A stretch of DNA of 64,000 bases, taken from NCBI RefSeq assembly GCF_018687715.1, contig NC_056758.1:15257501-15321500 (forward strand). Direction: 5' to 3'. Shown piece by piece: positions 29,855-53,000 of this stretch. The position numbers and the translations under genes are program-made. This DNA comes from Carya illinoinensis (Eukaryota > Streptophyta > Magnoliopsida > Fagales > Juglandaceae). The notes under the pieces were generated by a model. That model made no database searches and had not been told where the DNA came from. It saw nothing but the letters and a program-made list of their open reading frames with translations. How positions within the stretch are numbered: the first letter of the stretch is position 1; each line of letters opens with the position of its first letter.

Positions 29855-31065
29855 ATGGACCTTTCTTCCTCGTCTTCCGTTTCTTTGCCTCAAAACCCTA
29901 GCAGAAACTTTTGTTACTCTCAGCCTCAGAATCCTCCATCAAAGCCTGCTGACCTCCACACCACACTCTCCTCCCTCAAAAGCCTCATCTGCCTCTCGCA
30001 CCAAACTCTCCACTCCCTCTCCATTCTCGTCCCTCCGAAACCACACCGAAGCCCCAATCACGTCCCATGCCCCTTCAATCACCACCATCTCATGCCCCCT
30101 CACTCCCTCTTTCTCCATTCTCTCCGCTGCCATTATCCCAATCTCCCCCTCCAAAATCGTCTCCACCAGTACTCATCCGATTCCCCTTTCGACTCCAATT
30201 TTCATTCCATATTTTTGTACGGGGACTGCCCGGGTGTTGTTTGCTTGTCGAGTCTAGATTCTGCGAAGAGGACGTTCACGATTCCGACCTTTTTATCCGT
30301 CGAGTTCGCGGATCTTGTTCATTGTGGCGGAAAAGAGGTTGAAGGGCTTCGGAAGGAGTGCTTTTTGGAGATTACTCCGTCGGAGTTAGTGGCAATTAGT
30401 GGTGAAACCGAGGCTTGGAGTGATTATCCTAGTGCCTACTCCCATGGTGTTCTTCGTGCGCTTTCTAGGGGTACGAGGATGCTTAGAGAGTATGGATTGA
30501 TGAATTGGGTAATTGCCAGTTCGCCGCTTTATGGTGGTGTTGTGCTTGATGTCGCTCTGAGGGACCATATATTTTTGCTTTTCAGGCTTTGCCTCAAGGC
30601 AATTGTGAAGGAAGCTCGAAGTTTGGATCGGGATCAGGACCAGATGTATAAGGGGAGGAATATGAGTTTCAAATGTCCCGTTTTGGTTCAAGCATTGATA
30701 TGGTTCGCATCTCAGCTTTCTATTCTGTATGGGGAAATGAATGCAAAGCTATTTGCTTTTAACATGCTTAAGCAATGTATATTAGATGCTGCTGCACTTG
30801 GCTTGCTGGTGTTCCCCTCTGAGCAAAAGGTGACCGAGTCTGCCACTCTAGAAGAAGAAGGTTCTCCTTCTCAGAATTTGGTTGGTAATGGCTCCGGTAT
30901 TAGCGATGCCCAATTACTTGAAACAACCATGAACAATAAACTGAACTGCACCGTTACTGGAAAGGTCATTTTAGAGTCACAGGTCGCGGCAGCAATAGCT
31001 GCACTGCGTGAACGGGCTTTGCTTGAAGAGAAGATCAAGGGTTTACGGCCTTCCCGACCACTTAC
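29855..31065 (+). CDS. SNRNP48: U11-48K exon 1 (residues 1-403, CHHC zinc finger)
   Basis: The exon runs from ATG to TTAC|GTAAGT. A Ser/Pro-rich start is followed by the zinc finger at residues 72-92 and a long folded region (about 100-350). Two bases of codon 404 are left at the donor. A telo-box-like AAACCCTAG lies in the first codons (about 29,892). Confidence 0.92.
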
Positions 31066-34000
31066 GTAAGTATCGACAGTATGTTACTATTCTTTTTTAT
31101 ACCTGTATTTTTCTTTATTTCGATTTAAGAACAAAAAATACCCCTACTCCTTTTTGGCATCCGAGAACTCTATTGAAAACTAATAAAAAGTAGGGGGGTA
31201 ATTCAAAATAAGAGAGATAATTGAAGGTAGGGGTGTCATAAAAAACAAGAGAGAGAATTTAATGTAGTGGGATAATTCAAATGAAGTGTAATAATTTAAA
31301 AAATATTATGTTCTAGCAATTTTCTATTGGCACAATTTACGGTAGGATGGATGTAGGAGATAATTTTCCCTTTTTCTTATTGGCATCGGGTGTCTGAGAA
31401 CTAAGTCTTGACTAATCCCGGGGTGTATAGGCCCTCGGCAAGGAGTTTCCCCAAGTGTATCTAAGATAATTCAAGGGGAAGTTCTCCAGTCCAATGGCCC
31501 TTAGAAATTTTTTACACCCAAGAGGATTCAAATCTTAGACCTAGAGGGAGCATACATCCAAGACCAATCCCTTTACCACTTGAGCTAATCCCTACGGGTT
31601 AACTATTCGGTGTAGGACAGAAATTCAAAAATGTTTACATCAATAAAGGATGCTTGCATACTTAAATTAAGAGAGGTACTGAGGGCTATTTAAAATTTTA
31701 CAATATTTTGACATTAACATATCTTTATTGCCTTCTACCTCTTCATTGCTTCCTACAAGAAGGTAGGGTGGTGGACATACATTTTGAAAATGTATACATC
31801 AACAAAGGATGCTTGCATGATTAAATTAGCAGAAGTATTGTGGTTCATTTAATAATTTTACCAACATTTTTATATCATTTTTTTTATTTACTACCTTCTC
31901 GCTGCTTCATTGAGTCCTACTTTTTTGTAGAATTGTCATGTTTTGGTATTAGGTGGTAAAATATTGTGTAGGCTTAGGGTATGTGCTGAGCCAAGTATCA
32001 GCTGTTCGAGCTGGACTTGACAAAAATATATCTAGGCTCTAGCTCATCGAGTGCGAGTTGAGCTCCAAAAGGTTGTTCAAGCTTAGTTCAAGTAGTATTA
32101 GCCAAGTTCAAACTCTTATTTTACAAACACAAAGAAGAAAAAAAAAACTCGGATCAAGCATTACTCAGAAATTGCAGTTAACATGAACAACAATAAAAGA
32201 AAACATAGATCGATTGTCATAAACAGAAACCAGCGGACCTACTTTGAACCTTGAATCAATTACCTGCTTGAAGACTCATTTTGGAGTTCATACCGACGAT
32301 TTCTTACCAAAATGTTGAGGACATAGGTGACAAGACTAAATCCATTTTTTCATGGTCAAAACACAATCTCATTGTAATTTTTTTTCCCAATATTTTGTTT
32401 TTGTTTTTGTTTTTTGTGAACTTGTACCATTTTCATCTTTTATAAAGTTTTTGTCGTGAGCAATCTTTTCTTTATTAAAATACTATTGTCATAATATTAT
32501 AGCTTTTATTATGTTTTATAAATGGAAGTGTGAATGTGAGAAATATAAAAAAAGAGAGGAAAAAGGAAAGAAATACTATTTTTTTTTAGATTTATGAATA
32601 TTGCAACCCAAATATAGAGAAGTATTGTAGCTCATATGACTTTCATTAACTTTATATAACCCATTGGAGAGCGTATTTTGACATGTTAACCATTTTGCAT
32701 TTATATGCAAAATGGCTAAACCATTGTGAATCCTCTTACGAGCTTTAAAGAAGTTAAGTAGATTTGTGTTTTGTTTGCGACTTTAATTGAGTTGAACCGA
32801 GCTTATGCAAATTTGACTCATTTAATGTTTGAGCCAAAGTTCATTTACAGCCCTACTTAAATTGATTGGAAATGAGAATGATTTGGCCTGTATCCTATTT
32901 ATTAATTTGAATGTCTAATAAATGTTACATTCTTGTATCAACTTGGATCAATATATTAAGATGGTGCCTAAAATGTGATCAAACCAATATTTAACAGTCT
33001 CTTTGATGGATGGCATTGATTGGGTTATATAATTTACGTGGTTTTGGTTGTGTAAATTGGCTTCCAAACGTCCTGTTTGAATTCATTTTATATCTAATTA
33101 CACGGAGATAGCAGATATATATTGTATCCAGGTTTATCCATCTGATTAACCTGTTCATTTTTTTTACCTATTTATTGTGGTCCTACCATGATTTTTTTTT
33201 TAACATCAATGTAATGTTGGACAATGTGTCATTATATTGATATGTTCCTGTTTGACTTATGGTTTTAAGATCTTCTTCTATAGTACAGTTAGTCTTGATA
33301 GACATACCAGTTTTCAGTTTTTATAATAATAAATGCTGAAGTGAATGTCTTTCTACTTGTAGATTTGCTGAGCATGATTATGTATCACAGAGAGCTGATG
33401 AGGAGCGGATAAGACGTCCTAATTACAGGTCTATAGTTGAGCATGATGGACTTCATCAGCAACGGTTTTCTAATCAGGTTAATGATATCATAGCCTTTTT
33501 ATATAGTAGCAGGAACTTATGTGCTAACTGTATATTGTTTGGTTTGCAAAAAGTGGTTTGGCACTGGAAATCTTTTGTTTTCCAAAAACTACTTATGTTG
33601 ATTATGACAATTAAGTCTTCAGAAATCAATTCAATTGTGGTTGGTTTCTACTGATCTTTGGGCTTTTGAGAACTTTTGTGACATTCCTTATATGTGGGAA
33701 CTCTACCTATTGCTGGCTGAGAGGAAAGGGATGGGAAAGATTGGAAGGAAAGGAGTAGTGGATGGAAGGTGATATCTCCTTAAGACTGAGGGAACATCTT
33801 TCCATGGGGCTCATTATTTGTTTACTTATAAAAAAATAATAAGTGGATAAAAATATTTTTTGGTAGCTGCTTTTCCAATCTCTTCCCCATGTTGAACCAA
33901 ACAAGTGAAATACATATCCTTTCTTTTCTTCGTTTATATCTTGCCTTCCTGCATACACATCAAAAGAATAACAGCACCCATTCCCATCTTCTCTATATTT

Positions 34001-37600: not shown

Positions 37601-40600
37601 TTGTATCACATGCTCAAAAATACTCCAGCCCAAACCCCATCTGAGCATATATCCACAAAAGTCTAGTCAATGTCATAATTGAAGCCTTGTAGAATAATTA
37701 TAAACTTACCTATAAAAAAAGTTTTATTTTAGTTTCCCTCCCAAGCAATGAGATTCTAATCACGACCATCCTATACTCAGTCCGGAGTATCAGAGATGTG
37801 TCCTTATAGCATTAATTGTCATTTAATAGTAGTATATTTGGATAGTTGATGATGTAGTTTATAGGAGTAAAGCTCCATGCTTTGCAAATTAAATTAAATA
37901 GTATATAGATTTTTGTTTTCTAGATTGTATTCTGATTTGCATTATCCTTTATCAAGGTCTTAAATCTCTTAGTTTGCATTTATTATATTCTATAATTCAG
38001 CCAACGTTTTGCTGTTATGGGTAAGGGGATGCTTGCATCAATGGTTATGATGCAAGTCATAATGTATGTGACGTAGTCACGTGTCTATTTAAAGTTCAGA
38101 ACAGCTTAAAAGTTTTCTGCTTTGGCAAGAGAATGTTCTCTCTCTCTCTCTCTCTCTCTCTCAGAAGTAACTTAAATCTTAGTGTCTTCTGTTTATGCCA
38201 GGAATCAAACAAGACTAAAACTAGAGAGGAGTTATTGGCTGAAGAAAGGGACTACAAACGCCGAAGAATGTCATATCGTGGAAAAAAGGGGAAGAGAACA
38301 ACACTACAGGTAAGAACAACTTTATGCTGGTTGTTGTTTTACACAACTGCAAACTTTTAAAGGCATCATCAGTCCAGTGAAAAAGTTGTGGAAGGAAACC
38401 AAGTTAAATTATTAATTGTGCATTTATTGTCGGTAACTTTCTACCATGGGCTAATTGGAGTGATATATGAGATCTACATAGTAATGATATCAACAAGATG
38501 TTATTATGATGTATTTTGAAATGGTATCATTAAAGCTTAGATTGTGTAGCTTAAATGTTAGTATTATTTTCTGTGTCATAAGTTGTGGATTAAATGAATA
38601 GAGGTGCGGGTAACATGGGGTAGAAATGGGAAGAATTACTAGAAAAGGATATGTTGAATAGGAGACAACAAAGAGTAGATGTTAGATAAGATCCATGGCA
38701 TAAAAAGAGTAATGTGGTGGTTCTCCATTAGTTAAAATGGATCCGTTCTGTATAAAAATTTGCTCAGCTGAGTTAAATTAGAATATATGATATGGTTGTG
38801 TTAAATTTCATTATTTCAATTACATTCTTACTTACAAAAAAAAATCAGTATTTCAATTACATTTTCCAATTTTGTGTTGTGTATGAGGTCCTTTGATATA
38901 GATAACTGGGTGTTGTTAGACCATGAGAAGACAGTGACAAGAAAGGGTTTTGACTGTCAGTTTTCTCATGGTCTTCGATTGTGTGGGCATTGCATTCCTG
39001 TTGAATACACTACATTAAGCACAACCCGAAACAAATTCTCCAAACTTCTATATTTTTATGACTCTGGAATGACCTGTGCCATAACCCACACAATCAAAAA
39101 GGTACTGGGAATCATGACTCCCTAACCACCTCACAAGCAGGAAATGATAAACTCTTTCCCTCGCTCTGCTTCATCATATAGCACCTCTCCCAGGCTACGA
39201 TTTGCCTCTTTCATAAATTATCTAGCATTAATTTAAGAAAGAGCATTGGTCTTGGCGTATTCTCCTCCAAGTCTAAGGTTCAAACTTGTGGGTGCAACAA
39301 TTCCTAGAGGCCGTGTCCCTTGGTTAAAAACTGATGATTTACCCAAGTTGTGTGATGGGGCGTGTCACAGGGCTGGTAGCCCATCTCTCTTTAGCTTTAA
39401 TACTTCCAGGATTTCCTTGCTGTTTTCTTTTGTACTAAAATTATGCCTCTCTCATTTCTTGGTCGTTTTGTAAATTTCATACTTCTATAAAAACTAATCT
39501 TCCCTAATTTCATCTTACTACTTATTTCTGCACACTCTTCTGATGAAATGGCACACCAACTTTGGGGGATGTGTGTTGTAGAAGGATGACCTTGATACTT
39601 ATAAAAAAAAGGGACGACCTCGATAATAACAATGGAATTCCTAATGCCTAAAACTAATTATTAATTGAGTATACTGTTAAATTAGCCACATAGATTTTAA
39701 GCATTTTAGGAATCTATTATGTGAGGGGAACTTCAATCTCTGCAGGTCACTAATTGCTTAGGCCATGTGTAAGCATTACTTTGATGATCGCTGTCTATTT
39801 TTTTTATTAAACTTGATTGAAAAGTTTTTTAGAATAACACAAAAGATGTAGCCCAAGTACATGTCAAGTTTGCTTGAATACCCTCAAATGAGAGTTTCCA
39901 TATATTATATATGCTGCCAAGTCTTAATTACAGCCTACAAGTCATCTGTAAAATAGGAAAGAATCAAGGAATACAAGAAAGGAAATAAACTCAAGTTGGC
40001 ACCTAATCAACTATTGCTATTTATAGCGATATATAGATATCATTGACTTCCCCCCTCAAATTGATGTTGGTCGATCGAGAAGCATCAATTTGTCAATCAT
40101 GAATTGATGACGATGGCGAGACATAACCTTGGTAAAGACGTCAGCAATTTGGTGTTCGGTGGAAATGTGAGGAAGTGTAATCACATGATGATCAAATGCC
40201 TCATGAATGGAATTGCAATCTACTTTAATGTGCTTGGTGCGCACATGAAACACAGGATTGGCTGCAATTTGAATAGCATTGGTGTTATCCGCATGAAGAG
40301 GGGTAGGAGTAAGTTGTGGAACACTCAGTAAATCCTGAAGCCACACAATCTCAGAACATGCTGATGACATAGCACGATACTTAGATTCAGTAGAAGATTT
40401 GGATACGCGATCCTTCTTCTTACTTTTCCAAGAAATGAGAGCATTACCAAGAAACATACACCAACCAATAACGGAACGATGAGTATCTACACAAGCAACC
40501 CAATTAGCATCACTGTAACCTGTTAATTGTAAGGAATTCTCAGTGGGAAAGAATAAACCTCTACCAGATGTACCTTTGAGATAACGAATGATCCGTTGTA

Positions 40601-43600
40601 CTGTTGCAAGATGAGATTGACGAGGAGCTTGTATAAACTGACTGACTTGTTGGACAGTAAAGGAAATATCAGGTCGGGTAATAGTCAAGTAATTTAAACT
40701 CCCTACTAACTGCCGATATAGAGAGGGATCAGATAATAGTTCACCCTCATCCCGACAAAGCTTTAGATTGACCTCCAGAGGTGTAAGTACTGAGTTTCCA
40801 GATTGAAGCCCAGCCAAGATGAGAATCTCTTGGGTATACTTGTGCTGATGCAAAAGCATACCATTAGAACAAGAATGTACCTCGAGACCAAGAAAATACT
40901 GAAGTGGGCCAAGGTCTTTCATATGAAAAGTAGTTTTGAGATGCTGCTGCTCAATCAGGTGAGAATTAGAACCTGTGATAACTATATCATCGACATATAC
41001 TAAAAGAACAAGAAGTCCAATGGCAGTTCTCTGAATAAAAAGAGAATAATCAAACCGACTCTGAGTAAAATGAAAATCAAGAAGAGTGGTGCGAAACTTC
41101 TCAAACCATGCACATGGTGCCTGCTTCAAACCATACAAAGACCGCTTCAACTGACAAATCTCAGTGGATGATGAACTGAACATACCAAGAGGAGGAGTCA
41201 TATAGAGTTATTCCTTCAAATCCCCATGTAAGAACGCATTTTTCACATCCATCTGCCTAAGAGGACCAGCCTTTGGAAGCAGCAATGGCGAGAAGAGAAT
41301 TTATAGTGGTCATCTTGGCAACGGGTGCAAAGGTTTCCCCATAATCAAGGCCATACTCCTGACAATTTCCAAGAGCCACTAAACGGGCCTCATATCTATC
41401 AATGATACCATCAAGCCTGAGTTTAATAGTGTACACCGATTTGCAGCCAATGAGTTTTACGCCATCAGGACATGGGACGATGTCCCAAGTGTGGTTATCT
41501 TGAAGAGCCCGAAGTTCATCTTGCATAGCTTGCCGCCAACAAGCTTGAGCAGCAGCCTGAGAATAAGACTTGGGCACAGAAGTGGTATCAAGAGTAGCTT
41601 GATGGGCAGTATTTACAAACCCATACATGTCCGGGGGATGTGAAACTCGAGATGATCGTCGAGGTTTAGTTGAGATGGGATCAGATGTCTGTTCTATGAC
41701 AGGAAGGGGTAGCGGAGACTGTGGACGACGTCTTTGATAAACAAGCCTTGGCTTAAAACGTTCAAGAGTACAAGAGACATCATCAAAAATAGGCAATTGA
41801 GCAGAAGTAGAATCATGTGAAACGCAAGACTGAAAGAAATATTTGTTTTCAAAGAAGACCACATTTCGAGAGACACGAAGCTTGTGAGCATCCGCATCAT
41901 AACACACAAACCCTTTATGAACATTACTATACCCAAGAAAAGCACACTGAGTAGCCTGAGCAGAAAGCTTGTGACGTTCAGTGGAGGGCAAGTGAACAAA
42001 ACAAACACAGCCAAATATATGAAGCGAATTATACTTGGGAACAACACCAAATAGACAAGAATATGGAGAGTCAAATTGTAAATTAGGAGAGGGTAAACGA
42101 TTAATCAAATACACAGCTGTAGATAAAGCTTCAATCCAAAAACGAGGAGGCACAGAAGATTCAATCAACAAAGTATGAACAACATCCAAAAGATGACGAT
42201 TCTTATGCTCAACTACTCCATTCTGTTGAGGACTGTAAGGACATGAGCGTTGAGAGAGAATACCCTTAGTTTTGAGAAAATTCTGAAACTCATGAGACAT
42301 ATATTCCCCCCCATAGCCAGAACGTAGTGTTTTAATACAAGCAGAAAATTGAGTCTCAACAAACACAACAAAAGCTTGAAAAGTGGAAAACACATCAGCT
42401 TTGGATTGTAGAAAATATATCCAAGTGAAATGGCTATAGTCATCAATGAAGGTCACAAAATACTTGTATTGAGCATGTGAAAGAATGGGATTCACTCCCC
42501 AGACATCAGTCTGAATTGTCTCAAAACATGTAGAAGCGCGACTGCCATTTAAAGGAAAAGGTAAAGATTTGCTTTTACCAAGTTCACAAGAGCTACAATC
42601 AGAAGACACAATAGAAACATAATTTTTATTCCCCAAATAAGCTCGGTTCATAAGATGATTCAAAACAGAAGAATTGGGATGTCCCAAATTTTTATGCCAA
42701 ACATCACTATTATTAGTAACAGCAGTACAAGCAAAGGAATCAAAACTAGAAATGGAAAATTGAAGAGGAAATAGACGTCCCACTTTAGGCCCCTTTGCTA
42801 TCACGTTCCCCGACACTTGATCCTGCACACAATAACCATTACAATCAAAATGAATCTCACAATTATTATGTACAAGCTGTCCAACAGAAATTAAATTTGT
42901 AGATAATTCTGGTGACACAAATACATTGTTGAAAGGGGATCCCAAAGTTCCAATTGCAGTGATGGGAAGAGTATTACCATTGGCTATTTGAATGTATTGA
43001 TCACCCGTATATTTACTAACATCATGTAAGGCATCGGCATTTCCAGTCATATGATTGGAAGCTGCAGAGTTAACCAAACAAGGAGATTTGAGGAAATTTC
43101 CCTTACCTTGAAGACCAAACGCAGCAAAAGCGGAAACAATCATCTGTTGGACCATCTCAGGTGTAAGAGTAGATGAAGAACCAGCTGTAGGTGGCTGCCC
43201 CGGAGCAGAAACAAAGGGGACAGCAGCTAAATTAGCCTGGGCAGCAGTGTGAATTCCTTGGCCCTGTCGATTCTGAGGTCGCACGCGACAATCTTTAAGA
43301 ATATGGCCCTCCTTTTTGCAATAATTGCATAATTTTCTGCTGCAATGCTTTGCAATATGCCCAAATTCCTTGCAACTAAAGCACTGTATCTGTGTCTTGG
43401 ATCTTCCTTTCCCTTGAGCAGCATATGCCACATTAACCATCTCAGTTGTCACGGTTTCTTGAGTGAGTCCATGTTGAGTAGCAAGACACTGCTCTTCTCT
43501 CAATAATTCCCCCAAGCACACATCCAAGGAAGGAACAGGATTACGGTTTATCAAACCAGCTTGTGCAGTCTCAAACTCAGGTCTTAGTTTTATCAAGAAT

Positions 43601-46600
43601 TGATCTCTGTGACTCTCAGCATGAACAACTTGGAATGCTTCTAGGGCTGCCTTAGGAACTTTAGAATATACTATCCCAGAATACTCACTCCATAAATTTA
43701 GAAACCCAGCATAGAACTGTTCAATGGAGAGATTACCTTGTTTGTAGTTGGAAATCTCTAACTCAACTTGAAATTTGCGTGCAGTATTGTCTTGATAATA
43801 TACACGCCTAAAATAGTCCCACATCTCCTTGACAGTAGTAAATCTGGCATGATCTTTGTATACCTCTAGTGTTCTTAGGCTATGCCTTTTTATGAATAAA
43901 ATTTACTTTTACCTATCAAAAAAAAAAAAAAAAACAGTAGTAAATGATTGAAGATTGTTGACCATATGTGGTTCAACGGAACTTAATAGCCAAGAAACAA
44001 TCTTGGCATCCTTGCTGGACCAAGAACTAAATTCTTTGAGATCAGTAGGGGCCACAGAAGACCCATCCAAGTGACCCCATAATTCATTTCCTTTCATAAA
44101 TATTCGAAACTGAAATTCCCAGCTTCCATAATTCTTTCCATTAAATTGAATGATTGAATTTTCACCCTACATAATGACCACAAAATCAAAATGAGTGACC
44201 TGAAAATGCCAATATACCCGAAAATACCACTGCCAGAAAATACTACCAGAAAATGCACCAAAAAAACTCAGAAAATCTCTCTGCAAAAGCCTAGACAGAG
44301 AGCCCGAGAAAAGTGCACCTAAAGAGGCCAAAAAAACACCTCTCTAATGAAACAGAAACTGCTGAAATTTCCAGTAGCCACTGACCCACTAACTGAAAGC
44401 TCCAAAAAAGGCCAAAAACACTGCTCTGAAAAACAGAGTGCCGACAACCATGTAGAAAGAGTTGCCCAGAAAAAATTAACCCAGAAAGTGAAGGCAGAGA
44501 GTGCCGACATAAGCCAAAGAAAGTATCTGCCGAAAAAAATTGCCCAGAAAATTCTAGGGCTCTGGTACCATGTCAAGTTTGCTTGAATACCCTCAAATGA
44601 GAGTTTCCGTATATTATATATGCTGCCAAGTCTTAATTACAGCCTACAAGTCATCTGTAAAATAGGAAAGAATCAAGGAATACAAGAAAGGAAATAAACT
44701 CAAGTTGGTGCCTATACAACTACTGCTATTTACAGCCATATATATTTACTGCCATATATAGATATCATTGACAGTACACAGTATTTCTACAGGAGGAATA
44801 ATTAAATAGAAATACAGAAAGGTACAAGAAAATCATGGAAACTCAACATACTAAAATACATAGGGGCTGCCTCGATGAAGAGTGTATTGAAAACAAAAAT
44901 TTTAACCTTCCATTGTCTGCTGGCAAACTTCAAAACTTCTATCATTCCTTTTCCTCTAAATACACCGCACTAGGCAAATAGGGATCACTTTCTGAACTGC
45001 TGCAGTATGTGGGTAGCCATATAATCGCCTCCTATTGGCAAAGAGATAAACCATTCTTCCTGCATAACCTAAACCAACCCAGCCTCTACTGCAATAAGTC
45101 ATTACACAAAGCTCACAATTCTTTAAGACTTTTTCATAATGCTTTGGGCTCATTTACTTCTCTTACACACTTGACACCGGTGTGACCTGGGTTGTGCGAT
45201 CTTGTTGGCCACAAGAAAAGTCCCGTGAGGTTTGATCACTACTGGGATTGATCTGCCCAATTAACTCTGGGTGCACTTGGTGTAGAGATCATCCCTTGTG
45301 ATGATGAATACTAGTGTGGTTGCATTCCATTCATTGATTCCATGGCTGTGGATCCAAGATTCTGAGTGATCATTCCTTCATTCATTTCATGCATTTCCAT
45401 GATGGCCAAGCATTTTTTTTCATTCTTTGGAAATATGTACACTATGATCTTTACCTTTACCTTATGTTGAGTATTCATGATAGGGTACAATTCCCATAAC
45501 CTTTGAGAGCTTTAAAATTTTTATCTTTCATGAAAAAGCTTGTAACTTGCACTCTTTGAAAACTTGGGAAAATAACTTCTGAACTTTTCAAGAGAAAGTT
45601 CATTGATACTTATAAAAAAAAAAAGAAAAAAGAAAAAAAGAAAAAGAGAGAGTTGGTTGATATCATTCTTTGAGAACATTGCTTTTATAGAAAACCTTTT
45701 GGTTTCCCTTTTATATTTCTTGCTTCCACAGAAAAAGTAATCTTGCTTCTTTCGAGCCTTAATCCCTTGGTCCCTTCTATCCTTTTTGGAAACTTGATTC
45801 ATGATGCAAAACACCTTAGCATTCATCCTTCAGTACACTGCAATACATAATCTTCTGTCATAAATATGTTCAAGATTTTTAAATATGTTTGTTAGGTTTC
45901 AATTGCCGCAGGTCTCATCTCATTTGGTGCCACGTAGAGGTGCCAACCCACCATGACACTTACTGGACTTGAAGCTGGAAATTGCAGTGACATCTGTGAC
46001 TGGTTTTTTAACGTCTTGGCCTGGAATTTCAAACTGTTTTAATTAATGGAAAGCCAACTTGAACAAAAAATTATGGAGACCCAATTTGAGGTGTATCTTT
46101 GCCAGAGCCTTATCTAGGCAGTGAAAGTTCTCGGATACCTTGTCATAAAAAAAAAAAAAAAAAAAAAGGTGTATCTGGTGCATTATGGGCCCTACCCCAG
46201 GCCCGGAACTCATGGTATCCTAATCTGTCAGAATTATGTCTCATAGGTTCCAACTTTTAACTTCTACTCAAAGCTTTTTAGGGTTGAAGAAACCTAACTA
46301 TTGACTAATATCAATCCATGCCTCAAAATTACCCATACATGTCAAAATCACCCTTCTGCCCATCCTGCCCGTTACCCAAGTCAGGTGGGCGGGGCAGTCA
46401 GATTAGTATAACTGGGCAGGTGGATACCCACCCACCATCCTGGCTTGTCTGCCCAACCTGCCCAGCTGGTAGGATAACAGCCAACAGGTGGGTTGCCCAC
46501 CCATTTCCCCAGGCTTTTTGTATTTTCTTTTTTACTTATAATAACGAAAGAAGTTCTTGTAGTTTTGATGATGAATGACGTAATTAATTTGGTGATTTTA

Positions 46601-48076
46601 TCCTCAAGGCTCAATATAATTGCATTTCCCATAATGGTTCCCCCTAATGGCGGGCTGGCTTATCTTCTGTTTTTAAAAGTACTGTAGCTGTATGTCTATT
46701 TCAATGTTAATAAAATATACTTGTAAAACAAATATCAACAAAATATCTTCTTAGTTATATAAAACAAGTTGTACTATAGCTTTATGTTATACATAAAAGC
46801 TATAAACACTTACTCCTGCTTCTCATCTTTGTTATGCACTGCACTGTAGTGACTTGAGTTTTGACCCATTCTGCATATTTTTCCCAAAATGATTATGCAG
46901 TTCCCCTGTTGTTTGCGTAGAAGAATATATTGTGAAAGGTTGTGCTTAAAAGAACTTTTTCTTTTTTCTTTTTGTATATCAGATTTTATAGGCAGAGCTT
47001 TCGAGGAAGCTGGTTAGTTTTTAGTTACGCTAACCTGCATAATATTAGAGTCTAGTGAATATGTGAATGTTTGAGATGGTGGACCATCTGTTAGTACATT
47101 GTTATATTACAAGATAGTTGCAGTTGCTAGAATTCACTTCATTTATGTTTCATTGCCTAAAAGGGTCGTGTACTTTTGTTGGAAAGGATGCTTGGCTTAT
47201 ATGGCAGTGTTTATATGGAATTCTGTCCTGCTCTGCCTTGTGTGGACCATTTTTCATCTGTCTTCAGTTTTCTTATGTATGTTCTGTACAATCAGCTTAG
47301 TTTTGGCATCTAGCCGGCTTTGTTTTTTCTAGTGCCCCGTGCCCTCCATTTCATTAATGCCTTGTTTTTACTACACATTTTAAAAGGTCACAAGGGATAT
47401 AATAGAGGAATACATGGTGGAAATCAAGAAAGCTGGAGGGATTGGGAGCTTTGCAAAGGGAGCTGAAGATGGAGAAATGTTTCCATCTGAATCACCTTCT
47501 GCTCATAACATCACCTCTAGGGTTGATAACCCAGCAAAAAGTGACTATGCATCGACCCGAGGTAGCCAATACAACAACAGGACACAGCCAGAGTCTGATT
47601 ATAGTAGTAAGAAATATAAAAGTTCCACTGATGCCAAAGGTTATGAGATGCCGAGAGGAAGCCTTAATGAATGCCCCCAAAATGCAGATCAGAGAAGTTT
47701 GGGTTGGGACAAACGTGAGAGAGAAAATCCTTCAAGAAGTCCAGAAAGATACAAAAGTCATGGCCAGTCACATGTTCAAAGTAGTCATCGACGAGAGCGA
47801 TATGATCTGAAGGTGACCAGTTCCTGGCATGACAAGAATAAGCAGCGGTATTCTGGCATGTCAAAATATCATAATAATAGATCTCCTGTTTCAAAATCTG
47901 TAAATGACTTGAGTGTAAGGAAGAATGCACAGAAATCAGAAGTTGAGCATAGACAGCGAGGGAACACATTAGGAAACGATAGTTCTGATTTTCTGGTGCA
48001 AATTCCTTTTGAGGATCGATACAATCCTACAGAATCTCCTGACATGTATGAAGATCTTTGTGCGGGAACTCCATGA
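29855..48076 (+). CDS. SNRNP48: U11/U12 small nuclear ribonucleoprotein 48 kDa protein (U11-48K), four exons
   Basis: U11-48K belongs to the U11/U12 di-snRNP of the minor spliceosome and helps recognise U12-type 5' splice sites in the nucleus. Predicted exons 29855-31065, 33363-33477, 38202-38309 and 47387-48076 join in frame to 707 codons, close to the length I recall for the plant protein. Residues C72, H78, H88 and C92 fit the CHHC zinc finger exactly (C-x5-H-x9-H-x3-C). Exon 3 encodes the family signature LLAEERDYKRRRMSYRGKK (about residues 453-471). The C-terminal 200 residues are polar and rich in Ser, Arg, Lys and Asp, as expected for a disordered spliceosomal tail. No stop or frameshift was seen. 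Introns 2 and 3 are long (4.7 and 9.1 kb) through transposon insertion. Identity is from motif and overall resemblance; splice sites are by eye. Confidence 0.92.
31385..31610 (-). mobile_element. tRNA-derived SINE
   Basis: On the minus strand it carries an A-box-like TAGCTCAAGTGG (plus 31576-31587) and, about 50 bp downstream, a B-box-like GATTTGAATCC (plus 31524-31534). These RNA polymerase III promoter boxes have tRNA-like spacing. It starts near AACCCGTAGGGAT. The 3' end is not sharply resolved. Confidence 0.65.
31620..31925. repeat. Diverged tandem duplication, two units of about 155 bp
   Basis: Unit 1 (from about 31,624) and unit 2 (from about 31,784) share AAATGT(T/A)TACATCAA(T/C)AAAGG, GATGCTTGCAT and CTACCTTCT/GCTTC words in the same order. 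Confidence 0.65.
33363..33477 (+). CDS. SNRNP48: U11-48K exon 2 (residues 404-442)
   Basis: Acceptor TTGTAG and donor CAG|GTTAAT give 115 nt that complete the split codon and end in phase 0. The translation FAEHDYVSQRADEERIRRPN is charged and in frame with both neighbours. The donor is weaker than average. Confidence 0.85.
34890..36300 (-). mobile_element. LINE C-terminal remnant split by a Mutator-like element
   Basis: Frame 35217-34900 resembles the LINE zinc-binding domain (RFHKMAFGEDLTRDNLRKRH, then YLLVDCKLTRNLWVAIL). LINE-like sequence resumes at about 36,060-36,290 after the inserted element. Confidence 0.55.
35239..36050. mobile_element. Non-autonomous Mutator-like element (812 bp) with 9-bp target duplication
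   Basis: TATTATTAG flanks it at 35230-35238 and 36051-36059. The ends GAGTTAAGTACATAAACAG and CTGTTTATGTACTTAAGTC are inverted repeats of about 30 bp with few mismatches. It has no transposase. Its interior includes a GC-rich segment (about 35,455-35,640) unlike its AT-rich ends. Confidence 0.87.
36362..36472 (+). mobile_element. Very short LINE insertion (111 bp) with 14-bp target duplication
   Basis: AATTATTTCTCCAA is duplicated at 36348-36361 and 36473-36486. The insert ends with the family tail (GTATACCTCAAGTGTACTTG, then TTACTTATC and an A-run). Confidence 0.87.
38137..38162 (+). repeat. (TC)13 tract near the exon 3 acceptor
   Basis: The dinucleotide run ends in TCAG at 38161-38164, a potential acceptor with a strong pyrimidine tract, 37 nt upstream of the in-frame acceptor. 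Confidence 0.9.
38202..38309 (+). CDS. SNRNP48: U11-48K exon 3 (residues 443-478)
   Basis: Acceptor TTATGCCAG and donor CAG|GTAAGA bound 36 whole codons, including the LLAEERDYKRRR signature. A competing AG directly after a (TC)n tract, 37 nt upstream, would bring in an immediate stop. Confidence 0.9.
40056..41201 (-). pseudogene. Copia reverse transcriptase and RNase H
   Basis: The 381-codon frame has the catalytic LVYVDDIVITGSN intact, followed by FLGLEVHS, LNYLTITRPDISFTVQQVSQ and an RNase H domain (GYSDANW, SSTESKYRAM, HVRTKHIKVDC). A frame break between 41257 and 41201 separates it from the upstream frame. Confidence 0.88.
41257..44097 (-). pseudogene. Copia gag, protease, integrase and start of reverse transcriptase
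   Basis: Gag begins upstream of 43946 and is split by a 90-bp LINE tail (43844-43933). The 855-codon frame 43824-41257 then holds the gag domain, two zinc knuckles (CFSCKEFGHIAKHC and CNYCKKEGHILKDC, about residues 148-161 and 166-179), protease, the integrase zinc-binding and core domains, and the start of reverse transcriptase. The protease active site DSGAS reads NSAAS, losing the catalytic aspartate. The second integrase aspartate (usually RSDNGGEY) is also replaced (RSGYGGEY). The product cannot be active. Confidence 0.88.
43844..43933 (+). mobile_element. 90-bp LINE tail in copia gag, 12-bp target duplication
   Basis: ACAGTAGTAAAT is duplicated at 43832-43843 and 43934-43945. The insert is only the LINE 3' tail (GTATACCTCTAGTGTTCTTAG, ending with an A-run). 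It destroys the gag frame. Confidence 0.87.
44779..47386 (+). other. Remainder of intron 3
   Basis: It contains an A-run at about 46,147-46,167 and a GC-rich imperfect inverted repeat at 46,340-46,505 (GGTGGGCGGGG...CCCACCC, CTGCCCAACCTGCCC), probably a small DNA element. No coding region is supported. Confidence 0.5.
47387..48076 (+). CDS. SNRNP48: U11-48K exon 4 (residues 479-707 and stop)
   Basis: The exon starts after TTAAAAG with VTRDIIEEYMVEIKKAG and ends EDLCAGTP-stop. The tail is Ser/Arg/Lys-rich, with RERE- and SPER-type words, like other spliceosomal proteins. The acceptor has only a short pyrimidine tract (TTTTTACTACACATTTTAAAAG). Confidence 0.88.
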   Translation, partial: VTRDIIEEYMVEIKKAGGIGSFAKGAEDGEMFPSESPSAHNITSRVDNPAKSDYASTRGSQYNNRTQPESDYSSKKYKSSTDAKGYEMPRGSLNECPQNADQRSLGWDKRERENPSRSPERYKSHGQSHVQSSHRRERYDLKVTSSWHDKNKQRYSGMSKYHNNRSPVSKSVNDLSVRKNAQKSEVEHRQRGNTLGNDSSDFLVQIPFEDRYNPTESPDMYEDLCAGTP

Positions 48077-48330
48077 ACAACGCAGCGGATACTCTGCAGG
48101 AACCATCTGTCCTGACTTCCATGATAATTCTGAGTAGCATTACCTTGTGAGGTGAGTAGCTCTAGCTGTTCTTTCTATTCAAGCCTGAATTTTTATTTGG
48201 GTTTCAGTGTGTAGTTTTTGATGTGGCTTATTCTCGTAAATTTGCAGTAAAAGGTCGTCAGGGTGCAGCAATTCTGTCTAGACTTGTATCCTCCTTTGTA
48301 TCCTTTACTGTTTCGTTTGTTTGCTGTTTA
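48077..48330 (+). other. U11-48K 3'UTR with predicted intron 48152-48247
   Basis: A good donor (TGTGAG|GTGAGT, intron from 48152) and acceptor (AATTTGCAG, ending 48247) define a 96-nt intron beginning 75 nt after the stop codon. Further AGs lie at 48268 and 48281. No polyadenylation signal was picked out with confidence. Confidence 0.65.
48286..48306 (+). promoter_or_regulatory. Tandem U12-type 5' splice-site motifs (USSE)
   Basis: GTATCCTC at 48286-48293 and GTATCCTTT at 48298-48306 lie 12 nt start to start. The second is a perfect match to the U12-type donor consensus (A/G)TATCCTTT, and the first matches at seven of eight core positions. Tandem motifs of this kind in U11-48K genes are known as the U11 snRNP-binding splicing enhancer, which activates U2-type acceptors lying upstream. 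Here the acceptor at 48247 is 38 nt upstream. Assignment rests on motif, spacing and gene context. Confidence 0.87.
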
Positions 48331-48563
48331 GCTCGTTTACATCTTGTTAGTGCTCCTTTATCTCCCTTTTTTCTATCAAATTAGAAGCATGGTAGGATAT
48401 AAATGTGATTTCTCATAAATCATCACATCTTTAGTTTACATCAATTGCATCATCACATTACTCTTTGAGAAATTATAACTACACTATTGCCATTGAAATT
48501 CTCTGTGGTCTTACCATGCTGTGACATAGTGTCTGTTACTTTTTTTTGGTAGTGGTGGTTGTT

Positions 48564-48584
48564 GGGGGGGGGGGGGGGGGGGGG
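48564..48584 (+). repeat. G homopolymer (21 bases)
   Basis: An uninterrupted run of 21 G follows TGGTAGTGGTGGTTGTT. Confidence 0.9.
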
Positions 48585-48599
48585 TGTTTAAGGTCATTG

Positions 48600-49184
48600 T
48601 TTGATGGTTAAGGAAAACCCAAGCCACATATGAGTTTATACTTTAAAAAGGCTAGTCGAAGTTATATTTATAGTTCCTTGTAATCATCATAAACAGCAAG
48701 AACTTCTCCCTTAAAGATGATTCAGAATCTCCTTCAGTACCCTTTCCCTCCTAATCAATTAGGGGCTTTCATTCCCATACTTCAGCAAAGTAAAAAATAA
48801 AAATATAGGAACACATTTCACTTTTTATCTTCTATTTTATACACATTAGTATGGGAATACGTCATGCAAATGATCATAGTATTGTTTGTTATCTGGTGTA
48901 GAGCTGCAGTTGAAATGAAGGTCCACTTTTACAAAAATTTCTTTGTTAGGCTCTATCATTGATGTAGCCAGGCATCAATATGAATAAATATTCATTAATA
49001 GCATAATTTGATTGTCGGCGATATAATATAGGATGGGCCAATGACTTGTGGATATTCTTATCCTCTAATACGAATAAAATTATATCGGTAGGGATATACA
49101 CGCTTGATCATTCTTGAATATGCGAATTTGATATCTTCCAAGAATTGGTAGTCGCAAATTGTCCCAATCATGGTTACGCTAAAT
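48600..49184. other. Intergenic, nothing recognised
   Basis: The sequence is AT-rich without coding signal or clear repeat. Confidence 0.5.
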
Positions 49185-49819
49185 TGTGACACCTCAAATC
49201 CAAAATTAAAAACGGATAAAATTTAGCCTATATTTTTATAACTTTCTTGTATTCAAATATATAATGGATACATAATCTCCAAAATATTCACAATTATAAT
49301 ATAATAATTTAAAAAAATTCATTTACAAGCTTGACCAGAGCCATAATATTCTAAATAGTTAGAATACAAGTAATTCAATGAAAATTGTAAAAGTAATTAA
49401 GATGACTATGAGGAAACTCTATTTACAATCAAAATCATCTAGCTCCAGAACTTCTAACCCTCAATTGACTAAAATCATGTCCACTCTATAGTCTTCAGTT
49501 CAAAAGCTATCATCTCAAAAGAAGGAATCTTCTAAATGTCAAATGAAGTGGTGGTGAGTTGCCACGTGCTCAACAAGTAACAAGTTAATGGGCGTGTGGG
49601 AGTGGCAATATTCTTGACTATAAGATGGAACAAGTTTCCAATAAAAATATGAGTGATACAATTTTATCTCAAACAATATATTTAACCAAATATCCTATTC
49701 AAGCCATATGATAATAGAGAAATCACCAATATATTACAAGGATATCAAGTCGCGAGGAGTATAATATATCATGAAAATATCATGTAACGAAGACATTACA
49801 CCCTGAGAGGTGTCAAACA
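49185..49819. repeat. LTR-like fragment
   Basis: It starts TGTGACACCTC and ends GAGAGGTGTCAAACA, with roughly inverted termini. It resembles the TGTGAC...LTR type at 24353 only at the start. No target duplication was seen. Confidence 0.35.
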
Positions 49820-50089
49820 TGTTAATGTCAAAATGGCTTGAATGCACTTTCCATAGGTTTTCCTTTCATTATACGAAAGATATTGTAAATTAGCATTGCC
49901 ATATTTCCGATGCCCAAGTGCTATACAAGGTAAGTTTCTCCAACGTATTTACAGTTTAATTATCTGCTATATATACAAGATAGCTATAAAGGAAAGCATC
50001 CTAAAACATTACAAATCAAATATTAATCAAATATTATAGTATCAATCAAGTATCCTAAATTATCTCTGTTAACATTTCTCCTTGAATTG

Positions 50090-53000
50090 ATGCTAGGAGA
50101 TTAAGAAGCATCAATTTGTCAATCAAGAGCTGATGCCGGTGCTAATAAAGGGTTTTAATGAATATGTTTGCAGTTTGATGTTTGGTGGAAATGTGAGGAA
50201 GAGTAATCACATCTGTCAAGGGCTTCACATATGGAATGATAATCGACTTCGATATGTTTAGTACGCTCATGGAAAACAGGATTAATAGCGATCTGAATGG
50301 CACTTGTATAACTAGCATTAAGAGAAGTGATCTCAGAGCATGCAGAAGACATAACACGATACTCAGACTCAGTGGATGACTTGAAAACTTTGTCTTGCTG
50401 TTTACTCTTTTAAGAAATGGGAGCATTGCCTAAGATCATGCACTAGCTAGTAATAGAGTGACGAGTATTCGCACATCTGTCCCAATCAACATTACTATAC
50501 CCCACCAATTGTGAGGAAGATTCCTTAGGAAAGAACAACCTGTGTGTAAAGGTGCTATTTAAATATTGGATAATGCAACATACAACGGCTAAATAAAGAT
50601 GTCGAGGGGCCTGCATAAATTGACTGATTTGTTGCACAACAAAAAAACTATTAGGACGAGTAATCGTCAAGTAGTTCAAACTCCCAATGAGCCAGCAATA
50701 CAAGGATGATTTGAGTGAAGCTCACCTTCCTCCTGACGAAACTTGGGATTTACCTCCAAAGTAGTAAGAATAGAGTTACCCAATTGGAGACCAACTAATG
50801 AAATCACTTTCTAGGTATATTTGTGCTGATGTAACAATGTACCAGTTAGAGTAATCTGCACCTTAAGGCCAAGAAAGTATTACAGGGGACCAAGATCTTT
50901 CATGTTAAAAGAGGCCTTGAGATGCTGTTGTAATTGTTGAATTAATTCAGTATCAGAGTTAGTAATCACAATGTCATCAACATATAATAGAAACAATACA
51001 ATTCCTGCAAAAGTCTTACGAAGAAAAAGAGAGGAATCAAACTGACTTTGAGTAAAATGAAAAGCAAGTAAGGTAGAGCAAAATTTATCAAATCAGGCAC
51101 GCGGAGCCTGTTTCAGTCCATACAAGGATCGTTGTAGTCGACAAACCTATGAAGAAGGTATAGCAAACATGCCGAGAGGTGGAGACATATAAATTTCTTC
51201 TTTTAGATCCCCATGTAAAAAAGCATTCTTTAGGATATTTGCCAAAGAGACCACCCTTGTGATGTAGCAAGTGCTAAGATAGTTCTTACAGTAGTCATTT
51301 TAGCAACAAGTGCAAATATTTGTTCATAGTCAATATCATATTCTTGCCGGTTCCCAAGAGTTATGAGATAGGCCTTATATCTGTCTAGTGAGCCATCCGA
51401 CCGAAACTTGATTGAATACACCCATTTACAACCAATAAGTTTGACACCAGATGAACATGTCACAATATCCTAAGTGTGATTGTCTTGAAGAGCTTGGATT
51501 TCTTCTTGCATGGCTTACTACCAACATGCTTGGGTGGCTGCTTGAGTATAAGAATGAGGAATACAAACAGTGTCAAGAGTGACAATAAGTGAGGTATGAG
51601 GAAAACCATACCTATCCGGTGGATGTGTAACCCGAGTGGAGCGCTGAGGTTTATGAACCACATAATCAAATGATGGATCAATGTCTGGAAGGGGTGCTGA
51701 AGAAGGGGAAAGATGTCAATGATACATCACATTTGGTTTAAATTACTCTATAGAAGAAGACACATTATCAAAAGTAGGAAGAAGAGCAACAGGAGGATCA
51801 GAAATAACTTGAGACTGAAAGAAATATTAATTTTTGAAGAAAATCACATTCCGGGAGATTTGAAATTTATTTGCATAGGTATCATAACAAACAAATCCTT
51901 TCTGAGCAGGGCTATATCCCATAAAAGTACAAGTGACAGACTGGGCAACAAGCTTGTGATGATCAATGGGTGGTAGATGAATAAAACAAACACAGTCAAA
52001 AGTATGAAATGGTTGATACTCAGGATATATGCCAAATAATTGAAAATATGGAGAGTCATAATTTAGAGTGGTAGCAGGCAAACGATTGATCAAATTGACA
52101 GCAGTAGATAAAGCTTCTACCTAGAACTTAGAAGGTATAGAAGAATCAATAAACAAAGTATGAATGATATCTAAGAGATGATGATTCTTACTCTTAGCGA
52201 CTCTACTTTGTGGAGGAGTATAAGGACAAGAACGCTAGGGAATGATCCCCTTTTGCTGAAGATAAGTCTGAAAGGAATGAGACATGTACTCCCCCTTAAG
52301 TCGGAGCGTAAGATTTTGATAGAAGAACTGAACTGGGTCTCAACAAGGGCAATAAATTTTTGAAAGATAGAAAACACGTCAGCTTTGGAATGGAGAAAAT
52401 AGATCAAAGTAAATCGACTATAATCATCGATAAACGTCACAAAATAACGATACTGATCATGTGAAATAACAGGACTGACACCCCAAACCTCAATATGCAC
52501 AATCTCAAATCAATTAGAAGCATGACGATCATACGTAGGAAAATGTAAAGTTTTACTTTTACCAATATGACAACAAGCACAATCAAAAGAGACAGGAGAA
52601 GAAGAAAATTAATCTTTATTGCCCAAAAAACCATGTTTCAAAAGATGAGTCAAGACAACATAATTAAGATGGCCCAATTTCTTATGCTAGACTTCATTAT
52701 TATTGGTAGTAGCCGTACAAGCAAGAGAAATAACATTAGGAATAGAAAATTGTAAAGGAAATAGACGTCCCACTTTAGACCCATTTGCGATCACCGTCCC
52801 CGACACTTGATCTTGCATAAAACAACCACCATGAAAGAAATAAACATCACAGTTATTATCTATCAATTATCCAATAGAAATCAAATTGGTAGATAATCTA
52901 AAAGAGACAAAAAAATTTCAAAATGAAGAGCCCAAAGTACCAACAACAGTAATAGGAAGAGTACTGCCATCAGCAATCTGAATAAATTGCCTACCTCCAT

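Follow-up and report, generated by a model that had tools for sequence, protein, structure and literature searches.

Tandem U12-type donor motifs lie just past the stop codon of a pecan gene that encodes U11-48K, and this arrangement raises the question of whether the motifs form a USSE, an element through which bound U11 snRNP would activate an upstream U2-type acceptor. The USSE was reportedly described by Verbeeren et al in 2010. We addressed the question in a 64,000-nt stretch of the Carya illinoinensis genome (the window, in whose coordinates positions are given), and conclude from the arrangement of gene and motifs that the tandem is very probably a USSE, a self-regulating splicing switch of known kind.

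The window contains a complete U11-48K gene on its + strand. Coding exons 1 (29855–31065), 2 (33363–33477; matching pecan protein P0002), 3 (38202–38309) and the coding part of exon 4 (47387–48076) are separated by GT-AG introns, with the reading frame kept through exons 2 and 3, and when joined they encode 707 amino acids without an inner stop, ending at a TGA at 48074–48076. The closest protein match is Carya illinoinensis I3843_07G073600, likewise of 707 amino acids, and the sole difference is at residue 503 (Gly in the window, Glu in the match). Exon 1 carries the CHHC zinc finger (residues 70–92, approximately 30062–30130), which the Pfam zf-U11-48K profile scores at 20.6 bits (E 4.2e-4), slightly below its cut-off of 21.1. 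In the PDB, human U11-48K (8r7n_F, E 0.0014) was the sole sequence to match at E ≤1, with the best similarity over residues 439–531, within which exon 3 falls. The gene identity claimed in the original prediction is therefore borne out by the four exons, the 707-residue product one residue off the pecan protein, and the zinc finger.

A DNA search of the pecan genome with a 1,314-base query covering the U11-48K 3′ end detected no second copy; it returned at least 16 other matches (the counts of this search are lower bounds), all of them only to a dispersed repeat at approximately 48609–48700. This repeat starts at about 48609 and is 74–84% identical to its further genomic matches, suggesting that the unique 3′UTR of U11-48K ends upstream of it. 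The PF05253 profile gave no matches in the same genome, and because the U11-48K gene itself scores below the cut-off, this result is uninformative on paralogs. With exon 1 as query, no relatives were found among prokaryote genome and viral contigs. Two further features of the locus were observed: a G homopolymer of 21 nt adjoins the 3′ end of the gene (48564–48584, + strand), and intron 3 holds an LTR retroelement on the minus strand (39857–44772), Copia-like by our reading of its frames. Its LTR stretches (39857–40035 and 44565–44744) share 95% identity across 180 bases, and the element therefore looks fairly recent.

Both donor motifs lie on the + strand. Copy 1, GTATCCTCC (48286–48294), matches the consensus RTATCCTTT at seven of nine positions, and copy 2, GTATCCTTT (48298–48306), at all nine. 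Their starts are 12 nt apart, leaving a spacer of TTT (3 nt) between the 9-mers and 5 nt between the 7-mers. Since the TGA ends at 48076, copy 1 begins 210 nt past the stop and the tandem is thus in non-coding sequence. The predicted motifs, their spacing and their distance from the stop all proved correct when the exact positions were read; both members of the proposed pair of U12 donor motifs are present, but copy 1 is weaker than had been implied. By consensus match, and by the U11 pairing given below, copy 2 is the stronger site and copy 1 its weaker partner. Following copy 2, a third and degraded 12-nt step, GTTTCGTTT, is found at 48310. The predicted RNA fold of the 83 nt around the tandem was no better than that of shuffled sequences (z 0.06), a result that counts neither for nor against a USSE; a stable RNA hairpin at this place was dropped as a candidate because the fold energy was at shuffle level.

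An Rfam search of the pecan genome for U11 snRNA identified two genes, scoring 74.6 and 63.5 bits against a cut-off of 39; scoring covered 40 of the 72,666 candidates from the first look, so the genome holds at least two. Both begin with UAAAAGGGU, which is complementary to the donor motif. In the U12-donor register, copy 2 forms seven of seven pairs with U11 (one of them G-U) and copy 1 forms five of seven, while a shifted UCCUUU (48292–48297), 3 nt off register, forms six of seven. When the pairing energy was calculated in a fixed register, copy 2 ranked in the top 2% of positions across the window and copy 1 in the top 5.4%, and for this reason U11 pairing taken alone would be weak evidence. 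Duplex energies computed with a human U11 end (15 nt) were dropped, as its 3′ part pairs anywhere, and the genome's own U11 was used. An Rfam scan of the window at gathering score detected neither U11 nor any other Rfam RNA.

Upstream of the tandem, the 3′UTR contains a good candidate for a U2-type donor (GTGAGT, at 48152) and a candidate acceptor (TTTGCAG, at 48247) located 38 nt before copy 1. The possible acceptor AGs include 48207, 48214 and 48247, which with donor 48152 would give introns of 56, 63 and 96 nt, respectively. We judge 56 and 63 nt to be short for introns in plants. The predicted intron (48152–48247, + strand) is thus 96 nt long and 46% U, with the borders GAG/GTGAGT…AAATTTGCAG/TA. 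Exon definition would act across the 38-nt segment between acceptor and copy 1 (48248–48285), and this spacing resembles the geometry by which a U11-bound enhancer acts on an upstream acceptor in the animal genes treated in passages of PMC8329584 and PMC5473595. The stretch of 3′UTR from stop to donor (48077–48151) measures 75 nt and exceeds the threshold of approximately 50 nt for plant intron-based NMD given in the relevant passage of PMC3711448, a figure from plant reporter work in which NMD is set off by 3′UTR introns located at least about 50 nt after the stop codon. An mRNA spliced here would consequently be an NMD target, its junction lying 75 nt after the stop.

How far the tandem departs from expectation depends on how it is defined. 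The window holds 21 RTATCCT sites on both strands, against 19.2 expected from shuffles, and among these the sites at 48286 and 48298 are the only same-strand pair within 30 nt; a lone site is meaningless, and what counts is the pair. With a loose score (summed matches to RTATCCTTT of at least 16, copies 9–20 nt apart), the tandem was equalled in 11 of 3,000 shuffles of the 600-nt stretch that follows the stop codon. Shuffling the whole window 20 times yielded 5 such pairs, or 0.25 per strand, and a pair of equal score is present in the real window at 38666 on the minus strand. The loose pattern RTATCCTYN{2,8}RTATCCTY occurs at 108 places in the genome, compared with 75 for the reversed pattern, giving approximately 5e-5 expected per 600 bases. 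An identical ATATCCTTTAATCATATCCTC makes up 40 of the 100 such places listed; these evidently belong to a single dispersed repeat that contains tandem U12-donor-like sequences and would inflate any loose genome-wide search for USSEs. The strict pattern GTATCCTYN{2,8}GTATCCTTT occurs at only three places in the 674-Mb genome (reversed control, two). One is the tandem of U11-48K; another precedes, by approximately 370 bases, the open frame of a zinc-finger gene of FCS type (PF04570, E 9e-13; contig C6, locus L001), and the last falls within the coding frame of a leucine-rich-repeat gene, immediately ahead of the part for the LRR N-terminal domain (contig C14, locus L003). From the two other places in 2 × 674 Mb, the strict pattern is expected approximately 9e-7 times per 600 sense bases past the stop and approximately 3e-5 times over the 18-kb coding span of U11-48K, so that chance would place it in the 600 nt following the stop about once in a million. 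Across the genome the pair of motifs is in itself unremarkable; what sets it apart is where it lies, on the sense strand just past the U11-48K stop. Because loose pairs arise in shuffles, in the genome and in the window, the statistical case rests on the strict form together with the gene and not on the motif alone.

These numbers bear on the simplest alternative, that two donor-like 7-mers came to stand together by chance in a pyrimidine-rich 3′UTR, perhaps through a local 12-nt duplication. The degraded third step at 48310 would fit such an origin, as would the commonness of loose tandems genome-wide and the rate at which shuffles equal the loose score. The leucine-rich-repeat gene makes the same point: four GTATCCT copies within 74 bases (L003 1492–1565, minus strand) form a longer array than that in U11-48K, at a place where no USSE would be expected, and such tandems can therefore arise without being USSEs. 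Against chance stand the rarity of the strict pattern, with one of its three occurrences on the sense strand of U11-48K, and the spacing, position and U11 match, which agree with an element already known from this very gene. We regard a chance origin as highly unlikely. It would be more improbable still that one or both copies are true U12-type donors of an unannotated 3′UTR intron. Copy 2 has the perfect donor sequence that this requires, and a branch-site-like TCCCTTAAA (7/9) followed by CAG is found at 48707–48725; however, the sequence from approximately 48609 onwards is the dispersed repeat, and no U12-type branch sites above background were detected in the 3.2 kb downstream (48300–51500). 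Sites matching at 7/9 or better number 11 in this interval versus 253 on the + strand of the 64-kb window, and those at 8/9 or better number 1 versus 34. With downstream branch sites at background level, nothing suggests that the tandem donors are themselves spliced, and a real U12 intron starting from 48286 or 48298 was dropped as a candidate.

We therefore return to the USSE. The observations that weigh against it are the weakness of copy 1 (7/9; five of seven pairs; the lower rank of its pairing energy), the commonness of loose tandems, the four-copy array in another gene, the 11 of 3,000 shuffles that equal the loose score, the equal pair on the other strand of the window and, as regards NMD in relatives, the apparent older stop discussed below. 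In its favour are the gene, the tandem, its non-coding place, the acceptor 38 nt upstream, the complementarity to U11 and the lack of a downstream U12 acceptor signal above background, and on these points the identity proposed in the original prediction is well supported, while the prediction as a whole is supported in part. The element is not new: a review passage (PMC3584512) reports it to be conserved in plants and animals. USSE-like peptide patterns (VS..VS, IL..IL, YP..YP), which served as a back-door test of USSE conservation in orthologs, were absent from 121 proteins (120 listed of 361 matches, plus one exon translation).

From the sequence, the gene, the positions of its motifs, their U11 complementarity and the rarity of the strict pattern we infer how binding, acceptor activation, decay and feedback would follow one another. 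When U11 snRNP is plentiful it would bind the tandem donors, with U11 snRNA pairing to UCCU(UU) and U11-48K contacting the first donor bases. The bound particle would not splice from these donors; exon definition across 38 nt would instead lead U2-type factors to use the acceptor at 48247, whereupon the 3′UTR intron (48152–48247) would be removed. The resulting junction past the stop would make the mRNA a target of NMD, or the bound U11 snRNP would hold it in the nucleus. In either case the spliced form would be the unproductive one, the output of U11-48K would fall and the negative loop would close. A feedback loop running through the zinc finger had been proposed for this gene, and it is sound in outline: contact between U11-48K and the first bases of the U12 donor is described in a passage of PMC3584512. 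A USSE with a U11-dependent 3′UTR intron and negative feedback is thus the best explanation of the locus, and we consider it likely.

The output of such a switch could be nuclear retention in place of NMD. In animal U11/U12-65K, according to passages of PMC5473595, a USSE works in the 3′UTR and nuclear retention needs U11 binding, and the same source describes the USSE-containing isoform of U11-48K as likewise nuclear. The coding end of the pecan gene also bears on this choice. An alternative frame running to a TAG at 48135–48137 (…VRELHEQRSGYSAGTICPDFHDNSE) matches the extreme C-terminal end of four among the 119 ortholog proteins tested (P0003, P0004, P0005 and P0014; 0 of 100 shuffles for each); seven more of the 119 pass at no more than 1 of 100 shuffles, at internal places only, and 108 fail. 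Relative to ortholog P0003, window positions 48020–48137 show a net loss of approximately 41 nt from the coding end (counted on sequences), a changed frame and a stop 61 nt earlier. The alternative frame suggests an earlier stop at 48137, which would have left 14 nt before the donor at 48152. This distance is too short for junction-dependent NMD, and relatives may therefore have a different output, for example nuclear retention of the kind known for 65K. In pecan itself, with the stop at 48076, the junction lies at a distance capable of eliciting NMD, and for this gene we see retention as possible but not the probable outcome. The two sets of positions could be joined in one history, in which the loss of approximately 41 nt in the hickory lineage altered the frame, shifted the stop upstream by 61 nt and so widened its distance to the USSE-controlled donor from 14 to 75 nt, and an old U11 sensor was kept and gained an exon-junction NMD output of which it had previously been incapable; we think this unlikely to be what happened. 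Among the orthologs, the annotated C-termini of P0006 (Quercus lobata) and P0033 (Senna tora) read K-HQTR and K-CQAR where others go on, and a possible cause is splicing from another donor within the last coding exon to a 3′UTR acceptor.

If the USSE is confirmed, a woody plant would share with animals the switch by which the minor spliceosome measures itself, and control of major-class splicing by the minor spliceosome could be tested in a plant. The placement in the 3′UTR would make the switch readable by simple RT-PCR across 48152–48247, and the locus would illustrate how the readout, NMD or nuclear retention, can change once a stop codon is displaced.

The review passage cited above (PMC3584512) describes feedback through the USSE, on both U11-48K and U11/U12-65K, as conserved between plants and animals. 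The USSE passages of PMC3584512, PMC8329584, PMC6865273, PMC5473595 and PMC12179342 do not give the location of the element within plant genes, and a term search of the Arabidopsis U11-48K paper (PMC4892727) returned no mention of isoforms, alternatively spliced forms or UTR.

The pecan tandem shares with the USSE of SNRNP48 (U11-48K) in animals and plants the gene, the non-coding tandem of U12-type donors, a candidate upstream U2-type acceptor and the expected unproductive isoform (passages of PMC3584512, PMC8329584, PMC6865273 and PMC5473595). The mammalian U11-48K USSE favours a poison cassette exon and NMD (in the account of PMC5473595), whereas the pecan tandem is in the 3′UTR and would drive a 3′UTR intron. 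In this it would resemble the animal USSE of RNPC3 (U11/U12-65K), which acts on 3′UTR splicing; that element differs from the pecan case in belonging to another gene and in its output, a long 3′UTR isoform retained in the nucleus. Finally, the NMD autoregulation of Barentsz and SMG7 in plants has in common with the proposed switch a 3′UTR intron whose distance from the stop exceeds 50 nt and which marks the mRNA for decay (in the parts of PMC3711448 that treat these genes). The Barentsz and SMG7 introns are efficiently spliced (same passages of PMC3711448), whereas splicing of the U11-48K 3′UTR intron would depend on U11 snRNP.
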